Of a DNA stretch of 64,000 nucleotides, positions 36,794 to 39,910 are shown one piece after another. How positions within the stretch are numbered: position 1 is the stretch's first letter; each line of letters begins with the position of its first letter. Below the pieces are notes generated by a model that searched no databases, had not been told where the DNA came from, and was given only the letters and a program-made list of their open reading frames with translations. Position numbers and translations under genes: made by a program. Source of the DNA: Leucobacter chromiisoli (GTDB lineage Bacteria; Actinomycetota; Actinomycetes; Actinomycetales; Microbacteriaceae); NCBI RefSeq assembly GCF_016522505.1, contig NZ_JAEHOH010000003.1, forward strand, positions 1-64,000, in the 5' to 3' direction.

Positions 36794-36804
36794 GGGTCGC
36801 CGCC

Positions 36805-37302
36805 GTGCGGTTCCTCGGAGCCTCGCTCGGACTGGCACTGGTATGCGTCTACGCGGTGCTCGGAGCGTTCACGATCAACGACTGGGCTGTGGTCGCCGCG
36901 AGCGGCGTCCCCCTCGAAAGAGCTCGCGCGGCGATGACCGCGGAGGGCCAGCCCTACAGCGCGGCGCCGGGCGTCGCGTTCGCGGTCGCGGGGGTTCTCC
37001 TGGGCGCCGCGTGGGCGGCGGTCACCGGGGCAGTCCGTGCGATCCCGGGGTGGGGCTGTTCCGCGGGGTGGTGCGCGCTCCTGATGCTCGGCTCGCCGGC
37101 GTTCTTCGCGGCCGGCTTCTCGAACATGATGTCGGTCGGCGACACCTTCGTCGACTGGCGTCCCGACTCGGCCCGGGCCATCGAGCGGCTTTTCCATCTC
37201 TCGAGCGCGATCGCGGGGATCCTGCTGCTCGGGATCCTGGCCGCAACGGCGGGGCGCGCGCTCCTCAGGGCCCGGCGGCGGGCGCCCGGCGCGCCGTCGT
37301 AG
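36805..37302 (+). CDS. Hypothetical four-helix membrane protein
   Basis: I do not recognise this 165-aa protein. Four hydrophobic segments (residues about 3-22, 53-73, 85-105, 131-153) with a conserved-looking loop GDTFVDWRPDSARAIERLF before the last helix. It starts with GTG 12 bp after the ctaA stop, so it is probably co-transcribed with ctaA. It opens the block that separates ctaA from ctaB. Confidence 0.75.
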   Translation: MRFLGASLGLALVCVYAVLGAFTINDWAVVAASGVPLERARAAMTAEGQPYSAAPGVAFAVAGVLLGAAWAAVTGAVRAIPGWGCSAGWCALLMLGSPAFFAAGFSNMMSVGDTFVDWRPDSARAIERLFHLSSAIAGILLLGILAATAGRALLRARRRAPGAPS

Positions 37303-37361
37303 TCGCCGGAGCCGAGCCCCGGGCTGAATCCTCGCAGCTCCGAACCCGGGCTGAACGCCGT

Positions 37362-37417
37362 CGAGAGGCGGATTATCGCCGCAGATCCTCTCGTTCGCAT
37401 CGAAGATCCGCCTCTCG
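37362..37417. repeat. Palindromic element A beside the DUF559-type gene
   Basis: Arms CGAGAGGCGGAT (37362-37373) and ATCCGCCTCTCG (37406-37417) around a loop of exactly 32 nt; two more outer pairs form past a T-G mismatch. The arms are almost the same as those of element B (38650-38715), which also has a 32-nt loop. It lies between the convergent ends of two genes but, with so long a loop and no T-run, is not a typical terminator. Confidence 0.85.
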
Positions 37418-37450
37418 GCGCTGTCGCTTTCGCCGCGGGTATGAACGGAC

Positions 37451-38491
37451 TCACCGAGGCGGTGAGAACGGGGCTGCGCGAGACGGAAGCGGCAGAGCGG
37501 ACTCGGTGTCGTCGCCTGAGACCTCGTCGAGCAGGCGGGCGAGCGCGGGTCGGATCCGCCCCTGCGTGCGTCCGCTGAACTCGAGCATTCTGCGTCCCGA
37601 GGGCGGCAGCCGACCCACCAGCTCCTCGGGGAAGAAGACCAGCAGCCGCCATCCCGCGTCACGGGCAGCCTGGTGCTTGCACGCATCCCGTCTTCTCTGC
37701 CGTGGTGAGGAGAAGTGCTGCTCGCCGTCGTACTCGAAGAGGCTTCGGGTCGCGACGTCGGCCGCGTCGAAGCGGCCGATCCAAGTGCCGTTCTCGTCGA
37801 AGACCTCGAACTGCACCTGCAGTTCGGGCATCCCGACGCGCACCCCGGCGAGCCGCATCAGCGTCTCCATGCGCGACTCTGCGCCGACGCGGGCGAGGGC
37901 GGCCGCCTCCCGGAAGCGGACGACACCACGCCCCATCGCCGAGCCTGCGAACCGTCCGAGTTCTTCCGGGAGCACATGGACCTGCTGATCGTAGCGAGCG
38001 GGGTCCCGGCGCAGCAGGTGGTCGAGCGCGACCACGAGCTCACGGAACGGGAGAGCCGCGGCGGACTGCAGCACCGCGATGAGCGGTGGCGAGACCGGGA
38101 TCCAGTAGTCGTGCTCAGGGATCGCGCATGAGAACTCCGGGGCGTCGGACCGGTGCCGGTGCCCCGTCGCACCCCTGCACGTGACGCGTCCCATGCGCTC
38201 GGGCGAGGAGATGTCGACCGGTGCCTGCTTCGGCACGCGGATCGGACAGCCGAGCAGGGCGAGCGCGGTCAGGTGGCTGAAACGCTCGCCGGGGCGGAGA
38301 CGCGGGAGGTACTGCAGGGCCCGCCCGTACAGGGTTTCGGCTACGGGGGACTTCGAACGGACGCCGTGGAAGGGTCGGTGCCAGCGCGGGTGGACGAAGG
38401 TTCCCGGACCGTAGCCGAATCCCACCGCCTCCCGGACCAGGAACGGCCGGTCGGCGAAGTCGTCGTCCGTCGTTCGGGACCGCGTGCTCAT
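37451..38491 (-). CDS. DUF559/VSR-like restriction-fold protein
   Basis: A 346-aa protein. The C-terminal third has a very-short-patch-repair/DUF559-like nuclease fold: LEVQF-type strand (MPELQVQFEVF), then GRFDAADVATRSLFEYDG with candidate Asp/Glu ligands, EQHF and a closing GWRLLVFFPEEL. The N-terminal half, with a segment like AbiEi-type antitoxins (FSHLTALALLG), is less clear. Such genes are common singletons in Microbacteriaceae with unknown function. The chosen ATG (38491) has only a weak ribosome site. It is bracketed by two related palindromes at 37362-37417 and 38650-38715. Confidence 0.82.
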   Translation of the reverse strand: MSTRSRTTDDDFADRPFLVREAVGFGYGPGTFVHPRWHRPFHGVRSKSPVAETLYGRALQYLPRLRPGERFSHLTALALLGCPIRVPKQAPVDISSPERMGRVTCRGATGHRHRSDAPEFSCAIPEHDYWIPVSPPLIAVLQSAAALPFRELVVALDHLLRRDPARYDQQVHVLPEELGRFAGSAMGRGVVRFREAAALARVGAESRMETLMRLAGVRVGMPELQVQFEVFDENGTWIGRFDAADVATRSLFEYDGEQHFSSPRQRRRDACKHQAARDAGWRLLVFFPEELVGRLPPSGRRMLEFSGRTQGRIRPALARLLDEVSGDDTESALPLPSRAAPFSPPR

Positions 38492-38649
38492 CCTGCAAGG
38501 GTGCCTCATGAGGGGCACCGGCCCGGGGCATCCACAGGGATGTGGGCGAAACCGGCAGGATCGCGCGCTGTGAGCGAAGGACATTCGGTCGCGAGCAGCA
38601 GCTCGACCGGCCCGCTCCCTGGCGCATGCTCGCGAATCATGCTCAGGAG

Positions 38650-38715
38650 TCCGGCGAGAGGCGGAAAACGCCGGGGAACTCGGGATCTCAGAGCGAGATT
38701 CCGCCTCTCGCCGGA
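38650..38715. repeat. Palindromic element B beside the DUF559-type gene
   Basis: Arms TCCGGCGAGAGGCGGAA (38650-38666) and its perfect complement (38699-38715) around a loop of exactly 32 nt. The arm shares 14 of 16 positions with element A (37358-37373). It ends 19 bp before the stop of the trans-sulfuration gene and lies upstream of the DUF559-type gene. Confidence 0.9.
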
Positions 38716-38734
38716 GCGGTCACCGGGGCGGTCC

Positions 38735-39910
38735 TCACTCGACGGCGTGTCCCGTCCCGGGGCGGATCTCCGAGACGGCCGCGAGGGCGCGTTCGAGGTC
38801 GGCCCAGAGATCCTCGACGTGCTCGATGCCGATGCTCAGCCGCACGAGCGACTCGGGCACCTCGACGGGCTCGGCCGAGTGTCGGCGACGGCGTTCCACG
38901 AGCGACTCCACGCCGCCCAGGCTCGTCGCGGGCGTGAACAGGCGCAGTGCTCCCACGAAGGCGTCGGCGGCTTCGGCCCCGCCCCCGAGCTCCACCGAGA
39001 CGACGGCGCCGAAGCCGTCGAGCTGAGCGCGCGCTCGATCGTGGCCGGGATCCGACGGGAGCCCGGGATAGCGCACCCGCGAGATCGCCGGGTGCTCGGC
39101 GAGTCGCCTCGCGAGCTCGCCCGTCGTCTCCTCCGCGCGGTCGAGCCGCAGCGCCATGGTGCGCAGGCCGCGCAGCGCGAGCCAGGCCTCGAAGGGGCCC
39201 GGGATCCCGCCCTGCAGGGTGCGGCGCTTCGCGAGCCGTGCGCGGAGATCCTGATCCCTCGTCACCGCCAGCCCCAGCAGCACGTCCGAGTGGCCCGCGA
39301 TGAACTTGGTGGCGGAGTGCACCACCACGTCGGCGCCCGCCCCGAGGGGCCGCTGCCTGAGCGGCGTGCTGAAGGTGTTGTCGACGACGACCGTCGCGCC
39401 GCGCTCGCGTGCGAGGGCGGTCAGCGCGGGCAGGTCGACCACGTCGAGCATCGGATTGGTCGGCGACTCGAGCCAGATCAGGTCGGCGCCGTCGAGTGCC
39501 CGCGCCGTGGCGTCGACGTCGAGCGGATCGACCTCGCGCAGCTCGAGCGCCCCCTCGGCGGCCAGCTCGCGGGCCAGTCCGATCGTGCCGTTGTAGGACG
39601 CGCTCGGAACGACCGCGACGCCGCCGATCGGCGTCAGCGACAGCGCCGCCGAGACGGCCGCCATCCCCGAGGCGAAGGCGAGCCCCGGCACCTCGGTGCC
39701 CTCGAGCGCCGCGATCGCGCTCTCGAGCGGCTCCCACGTCGGGTTCGCGTAGCGCGCGTAGACCCGCTCCCCCGGTTCCGGCGCGCCGGAACCGCGGAAC
39801 GTCGAGCTCAGCACGATGGGCGGATTGAGGGCGCCGTCGGGCTCGGGATCGGGCCGCCCGAGGGCGACGACCGCGGTGCTGGGATGGAACTCGTCTGCGT
39901 GGCCGGTCAT
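38735..39910 (-). CDS. PLP-dependent trans-sulfuration enzyme, probable cystathionine gamma-synthase
   Basis: A Cys/Met-metabolism PLP enzyme (391 aa). The PLP-binding Lys is in HSATKFIAGHSD at about residue 199; YARYANPTW, SGMAAVSAAL and ESPTNPMLDVVD are the other family marks. It could be the synthase (making cystathionine from an activated homoserine) or the lyase; sequence alone does not settle it. No other methionine gene is near. A TACGCT box (39917-39922) lies 6 nt before the ATG, the leaderless pattern. Confidence 0.88.
   Translation of the reverse strand: MTGHADEFHPSTAVVALGRPDPEPDGALNPPIVLSSTFRGSGAPEPGERVYARYANPTWEPLESAIAALEGTEVPGLAFASGMAAVSAALSLTPIGGVAVVPSASYNGTIGLARELAAEGALELREVDPLDVDATARALDGADLIWLESPTNPMLDVVDLPALTALARERGATVVVDNTFSTPLRQRPLGAGADVVVHSATKFIAGHSDVLLGLAVTRDQDLRARLAKRRTLQGGIPGPFEAWLALRGLRTMALRLDRAEETTGELARRLAEHPAISRVRYPGLPSDPGHDRARAQLDGFGAVVSVELGGGAEAADAFVGALRLFTPATSLGGVESLVERRRRHSAEPVEVPESLVRLSIGIEHVEDLWADLERALAAVSEIRPGTGHAVE

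Follow-up and report, generated by a model that had tools for sequence, protein, structure and literature searches.

In the 64,000-nucleotide stretch of Leucobacter chromiisoli DNA analyzed here (the window), a gene encoding a DUF559/Vsr-like nuclease is bracketed by two palindromes with matching arms; many related genes are bracketed by palindromes of their own, and cognate copies of such palindromes are dispersed elsewhere in the genome. We favor, with a probability of roughly 0.6, the reading that the gene and its two palindromes function and evolve together, as a counterpart of the REP/RAYT system built on an unrelated enzyme. The observations suggest a gene-and-repeat partnership that is undescribed in the literature searched, open-licence PMC papers in which we found no account of a DUF559-palindrome association. 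The locus comprises the following features.

37359..37420, no strand: palindrome A, downstream of the nuclease gene, a 56-bp core at 37362-37417 (CGAGAGGCGGA..TCCGCCTCTCG) with three outer positions on each side.
37451..38491, minus strand: DUF559/Vsr-like nuclease gene, 346 aa, with bounds from alignment with relatives (the longest mechanical ORF starts at 38584).
37565..37882, minus strand: Vsr/I-Bth0305I-like nuclease domain, residues about 204-309, with invariant E209, D242 and E253.
37889..38479, minus strand: AbiEi-antitoxin-like N-terminal half, residues about 5-201, with an AbiEi-like fold in the predicted structure.
38650..38715, no strand: palindrome B, upstream of the nuclease gene, with 17-bp perfect arms, a 32-nt loop and a 56-bp core at 38655-38710.

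The pattern CGAGAGGCGGA-N{30,40}-TCCGCCTCTCG matches the window exactly twice, at 37362-37417 and 38655-38710, each time with N34, and two or more matches occur in none of 100 dinucleotide shuffles of the window, which confirms the original prediction that two same-armed palindromes bracket the nuclease gene. Both elements run 56 bp from CGA to TCG, and their loops are unlike, as had been described, as had the unrelated genes on either side: a 165-aa membrane-protein-like ORF with no Pfam match (36805-37302, plus strand) and a Cys/Met PLP enzyme, PF01053 (38735-39910, minus strand). The further claim that both palindromes have a 32-nt loop is correct for 12-bp arms in A and 17-bp arms in B, and the total length of 56 bp is the better descriptor; the perfect 17-bp pair of B (38650-38666/38699-38715) includes the outer pairs, and the 20-nt arms of A (37359-37378/37401-37420) are 85% paired. 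A 32-nt loop as a functional unit was rejected, the constant quantity being total length and the inner positions mostly lacking a pairing excess. An Rfam search of 36800-39000 returned three matches at E up to 10, all far below the gathering scores.

The predicted structure of the window protein (pLDDT 94.8) joins an AbiEi-like half to a homing-endonuclease/Vsr-like (PD-(D/E)XK-like) half. The Vsr-like fold is that of mismatch-nicking and homing endonucleases, and in the window protein it is predicted together with acidic residues that are conserved in the alignment. The window protein alone does not reach the Pfam cut-off for DUF559, a family still labelled 'unknown function', but at E 0.01 PF04480 is matched by 34 of the 60 relatives aligned. 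With a profile built from three homologs, relatives were detected in 46 of 54 genus genomes and in 279 of 398 family genomes. Three DUF559-like matches lie at separate places in the window genome, which is compatible with the earlier view of these genes as scattered singletons. The two further matches (L325 1677-2136 and L320; C25:138846, C41:34463) include a broken one, which lies between ATCGGGGACGC palindromes of 56 and 62 bp.

Bracketing was surveyed at DUF559-like loci taken from among the matches listed, best first (at most 30 per search). After removal of four loci present in both input sets as duplicates, 80 loci were given, nine of which were left out (two truncated, seven without a profile hit) and 71 used. 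A strict, strand-aware test, which called for palindromes with 11/12 arm pairs on both sides and a shared word of at least 10, found same-armed palindromes on both sides of 28/71 loci versus 10/1065 cross-locus left/right pairs (43 loci failing), and a relaxed test with 10/12 arm pairs found them at 41/71 loci versus 88/1065 pairs (30 failing). Among the loci listed, flanking palindromes have the same arms within a locus and different arms between genomes. Similarly, in 20-kb stretches a shared word of 11 was found across 12 of 18 DUF559-like genes versus one of 908 other genes, that one adjoining a DUF559-like gene, and a shared word of at least 10 across 12 of 18 versus 5 of 908; five of the 20 family stretches gave no called DUF559-like gene and contribute nothing to the 18. 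The founding cases L091 and L096 score 0 in this second test because their arms have mismatches. Fisher p values (2e-28 for the strict 71-locus test, 3e-22 for the 20-kb stretches) treat the loci as independent and overstate that independence, since loci within a genus are related and the pairs reuse loci. Chance as the origin of the association between palindrome and nuclease is ruled out by the window shuffles and both bracketing tests.

The association extends to copies that lie away from the gene. In 20 evenly spaced 20-kb samples per genome (400 kb each), the arm TTTGCGCAGAAGCAC, read beside the nuclease gene of G478, has four copies in the samples of that genome, all of 48 bp, and none in those of G047, G025, G029 and G017. 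The arm CGAGATCCCGATT, read beside the nuclease gene of G047, gives five raw hits in its own samples, two of them convincing palindromes, both of 57 bp; only these two are counted because the same search gives raw hits, not inspected, in other genomes (four in G025, three in G029, one in G017 and none in G478). Moreover, across 54 Leucobacter genomes a protein hit of 500 bits or more occurs in six, among them all five that carry at least 11 palindromes (p 2e-6, kinship not corrected), a correlation that, like the covariation described below, is confounded by relatedness. Together, the bracketing surveys and the dispersed cognate copies strongly support the expectation that palindrome and nuclease belong together and that the palindromes are REP-like, and the possibility that the palindromes are common and random relative to DUF559 genes does not agree with them: the palindromes are multi-copy, yet the bracketing is far above chance. 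Coincidence, or a hot spot in which both gene and palindromes favor the same permissive intergenic regions, fits the occurrence of both in variable intergenic DNA; we regard it as extremely improbable, since it leaves unexplained the match of arms within a locus, their difference between loci and the successful prediction of dispersed copies.

The window genome (G000) holds three exact copies of the 56-bp repeat, 10 with at most three mismatches and 11 by the degenerate pattern, which finds more than 10 copies in five of the 54 genus genomes (G025 32, G029 32, G017 27, G046 15, G000 11). The remaining genomes have 0-5 copies versus 0-4 in a reversed control, so the counts include a few chance matches. 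A scan of the GTDB collection returned 26 stretches, of which 19 are from Leucobacter chironomi, five from L. soli and two from MAGs of other groups. Length is fixed in the families tested: with 26-44 nt allowed, 11/11 places have 34 nt between 11-nt arms, and with another arm word and gaps of 10-40 allowed, 12/12 places (a set that overlaps the first) give a total of 56 bp. The middle 20 bp are unlike among copies despite the constant length. Among 89 pooled copies, arm positions 11-18 pair well beyond within-column shuffles and covary within each of G025, G029, G000 and G017 (p 0.003 or less), whereas position 24 is the only one of 19-28 whose pairing in the pooled set exceeds that of the shuffles (p under 0.05), and the whole inner block shows a weak pairing excess in one of the four genomes (G017). 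The arm covariation therefore points to the 56-bp palindrome as a folded or symmetric element that would be recognized as such, a reading drawn from sequence with the kinship of copies not fully controlled. In the flanks of 63 Leucobacter copies, the three bases outside the core favor CGC or CGT on both sides, and the core C follows a T in 24 left and 22 right flanks, of 63 on each side, giving CGT-C feet that are alike on both sides. One copy (L043 4211-4266) lies on the viral-held contig IMGVR_UViG_2547132188_000002 and may be host DNA around a predicted prophage, because it is identical to a copy in G025.

The context of the copies bears on two other explanations. Among 41 copies placed with a home-made ORF caller, including one on a viral contig and two in other groups, eight lie inside a called ORF and 31 sit between two called genes and outside any called ORF, in convergent (14), tandem (16) or divergent (one) arrangement. 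The palindromes could be ordinary bidirectional terminators or mRNA 3'-end hairpins, with the nuclease gene merely lying between two of them, as this distribution, the stable RNA folding of both window elements (z of -4.8 and -3.5 for A and -4.7 and -4.9 for B, plus and minus strands, respectively) and the location of the downstream palindrome of the 28 passing loci at the end of the gene, at a median of -12 relative to the model end, would allow. However, terminators have no need to share arm sequence, exact length and a gene partner, the copies have no conserved T-run in the 12 bases on either side, and the upstream palindrome matches the downstream one at the nuclease gene but hardly ever does so at other genes (the single case in 908 at word 11), so that we consider this explanation quite unlikely. 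Alternatively, the palindromes may be operators of the AbiEi-like half, the protein regulating its own gene and others with the dispersed copies as its regulon. The predicted AbiEi-like fold, the PADLOC AbiEi match of 23 of 60 relatives and the distance of 38-251 bp (median 84.5) that separates the end of the upstream palindrome from the model start at the 28 passing loci are in keeping with this; a second copy sits downstream of the gene, however, the dispersed copies avoid divergent promoters (1/31), the arms covary within a copy, as a simple two-half-site operator would not need, and the nuclease residues are conserved. Regulation of this kind is, in our judgment, unlikely.

Bracketed genes occupy separate places, including the CtaA-PLP locus in the window genome, a site beside resB in G029 and G025, and further Leucobacter genes with other arms; we take the genes to be CtaA, SufB, ResB and CHAP from by-eye readings of their translations. 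In G029 (L096) a homolog of ~65% identity lies with the same palindromes on both sides between a CHAP-like gene and resB, and in G025 (L091) a homolog of ~65% identity with the same palindromes lies at the matching place; the gene at this locus is truncated in G029 and frameshifted in G025. The CtaA-PLP slot of G025 (L055 3523-5217) holds an intact homolog of window 37451-38491 in the opposite orientation, accompanied on one side only by three copies of a second 56-bp family, CGAGTGGTC..GACCACTCG. When 150 family genomes were searched for the CGAGTGGTC arm with a permitted gap of 20-56, five (G215, G142, G103, G200 and G220) proved to have palindromes of 55-58 bp, and DUF559 loci were viewed in the first four: the arms of these palindromes, which had been located independently of the gene, recur at a DUF559 gene in G215 and G142, and they are absent at the DUF559 loci viewed in G103 (three) and G200 (one).

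Nine Leucobacter stretches were viewed by eye, six of which re-fetch earlier loci (the new ones being L317, L322 and L325). Clear palindromes stand on both sides in five of the nine (L317, L321, L323, L324 and L325), as two 56-bp copies of a third family in L317 and two 56-bp copies in L321, while L322 is weak, L319 lacks a cognate copy on one of its sides and L320 is clear on just one. In L318 (1145-4131, G017) the cognate gene appears to be split by an insertion: its N-terminal piece lies about 1.4 kb upstream with the palindromes outside both pieces, as if an insertion had landed in a bracketed gene. Palindromes also appear on one side in G046, at E. coli ycjD and in the second of two Arthrobacter records (L300), the first of which is bracketed (L299).

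The original prediction had also raised the possibility that the palindromes are the ends of a small mobile cassette, which is unproven, since no clean empty site was found and several copies are at the same place in two species. Among 11 CtaA-PLP loci, one has another full gene (inverted), two have remnants (one a weak trace, E 0.014) and eight have none detected, one of these eight ending at a contig end. None of the 11 carries the two palindromes, so that orthologous loci that lack the gene and still keep both palindromes were not encountered, and the only pattern match at these loci, in G047, has five mismatches and poorly paired arms. Clean empty sites were absent at CtaA-PLP in the 11 genomes, at element-level polymorphisms and at E. 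coli ycjD. The differences at polymorphic sites are long stretches of intergenic DNA, without a clean 56-bp insertion or clean junctions, and in the E. coli search both partial matches fetched have efflux genes inserted beside fabI. Many copies are orthologous, that is, at the same place, between G025 and G029, and dispersal is therefore slow. Polymorphic intergenic regions differ by purine-rich or low-complexity tracts as well, and such tracts lie beside several palindromes (L106 9259-9400, L068 8900-9050, L055 3220-3400).

The long, Leucobacter-type protein matches none of 50,697 phage records and two of 72,556 plasmid records, and because it is absent from the phages searched and nearly absent from the plasmids, horizontal spread looks low; 43 records of the plasmid collection match the short YcjD type. 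Low mobility would also match the expected look of a chromosomal, slow RAYT-like gene. The scarcity of the long type in phage and plasmid records argues against a defense or selfish system in which the nuclease attacks DNA that lacks or carries the palindromes while chromosomal copies label self or feed repair, as does the fact that no partner gene was noticed at the loci viewed, a viewing that was not systematic. Such a system would suit the predicted Vsr/PD-(D/E)XK-like nuclease fold and the place of AbiEi models in a phage-defense library, and we hold it to be very unlikely.

For the favored reading, in which gene and palindromes are one unit, we infer binding, cutting, copying, mobility and the direction of cause by analogy with RAYT and REP: the enzyme would recognize the palindromes, which the original prediction had named as a possible target of the nuclease-like protein, and cut them when folded, and repair would copy or homogenize them. 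The AbiEi-like half probably recognizes the inverted-repeat arms, and nicking or cutting is probably the task of the Vsr-like half, at times when the element protrudes as a hairpin or cruciform, as during replication. Further intergenic places downstream of genes could then receive a palindrome through repair of the break, which could also hold the two copies beside the gene to one sequence. With repeats and nuclease diverging together, each lineage would have its own arm sequence and length.

To consider how far the pairing extends beyond the family, DUF559-domain loci were drawn from 396 genomes of the phylum. Eleven of 27 usable loci among the best 30 listed share a flank word of at least 15 versus 22 of 905 control genes, and 16 of the 27 have no shared word of 15 across the gene; this test is weaker because base composition differs. 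In another family of the phylum (f42), TGTTTCACGTGAAACA is shared across short DUF559 genes in all four loci viewed (L241, L242, L243, L244), and we take it to be a candidate ParB site, parS. Nine loci of the short YcjD type, eight from records picked for diversity from the 43 and one from E. coli, were compared with pseudo-genes on four replicons, and words of 22-52 bp are shared across the gene in six of the nine versus three of 976. The six are from A. lipoferum, S. meliloti, two Deinococcus, Picosynechococcus, where the longest shared word is a direct repeat, and Pseudanabaena. No shared words were found across the gene in Sphingomonas, Photobacterium and E. coli; in Sphingomonas and Photobacterium paired repeats lie downstream of the gene, and in E. 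coli a repeat on the 3' side of ycjD is present many times over, the median being 18 places in each genome with a match. Sequence from the S. meliloti locus matches at least 441 places in 139 records, and among the 60 matches listed most are to parts of the repeat, with four records spanning most of the locus.

At the E. coli locus, the two partial-match genomes (L314, L315) have a TetR-family regulator and RND efflux genes directly after fabI, and other strains carry ycjD and its repeat at that post-fabI position. The 3' end of ycjD is partly duplicated next to the repeat (L301 4321-4465, L316), and in one strain ycjD is annotated without its C-terminus.

A broader reading would make Vsr/DUF559 nucleases the missing partners of a large, bacteria-wide class of palindromic repeats, each nuclease recognizing and cutting its own fixed-length palindrome and spreading or maintaining it. 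Such a second, independently evolved REP-type system would include the Microbacteriaceae elements of 48-57 bp and take in the CCCTCTCCC..GGGAGAGGG-like repeats of Proteobacteria and Deinococcus and the CCCCCA..TGGGGG repeats of cyanobacteria. We offer it tentatively, as somewhat short of an even chance. If the pairing is causal, it would give a testable function to a very common protein family, with relatives in most of the family genomes searched, and a testable origin to a class of bacterial repeats.

Several known systems share parts of this arrangement. Vsr and homing endonucleases of the I-Bth0305I type differ in that no intron or intein host gene or homing allele was seen here and an AbiEi-like half is attached, and AbiEi antitoxins of type IV toxin-antitoxin/Abi systems differ in that a nuclease domain is fused and the window gene has no AbiEii-like neighbor. 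Part of an earlier paper names a Vsr-type domain from Microbacterium (PMC3710099). VsrA of Caulobacter resembles the window protein as a DUF559 Vsr-like nuclease; as described in sections of the paper on it, its gene is unlinked to a methyltransferase gene, and the DNA-damage response in cells without the methyltransferase ScmA depends on VsrA (PMC12907096), while neither 'palindrom' nor 'inverted repeat' appears in the main text of that paper.

The closest counterpart is REP/RAYT, in which, according to passages of one study, extragenic palindromes lie mainly downstream of genes, dispersed and also flanking the gene of a DNA-processing enzyme, and species with several REP families have repeat-specific REPtrons (PMC3733652). 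Passages of the same study report CGTC-tagged REPs, with stems of 8-9 bp and the CGTC tag, for which no dedicated transposase was found (PMC3733652); some of the taxa they are reported from have palindrome-bracketed DUF559 genes here (A. lipoferum, S. meliloti), although the repeats beside DUF559 genes in those two are CCCTCTCCC..GGGAGAGGG and similar types. A classical REPtron was rejected for the present system, as no RAYT/Y1 transposase (Y1 HUH tyrosine transposase, Y1_Tnp, PF01797) was detected in eight genomes (5 of 14 control genomes were positive). The repeats described here have a fixed length within 48-57 bp, whereas REPs are 20-40 bp, and the 63 Leucobacter flanks have no consensus for the GTAG tag of REPs. 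Like REP/RAYT, the system combines palindromes dispersed in intergenic DNA with palindromes flanking an enzyme gene, but where RAYT is a Y1 HUH tyrosine transposase, the enzyme here joins a Vsr/DUF559 nuclease to an AbiEi-like half. A causal pairing would mean that an unrelated nuclease had arrived at the REP/RAYT relationship by convergence, and the rules of repeat-enzyme co-evolution could therefore be compared between the two.
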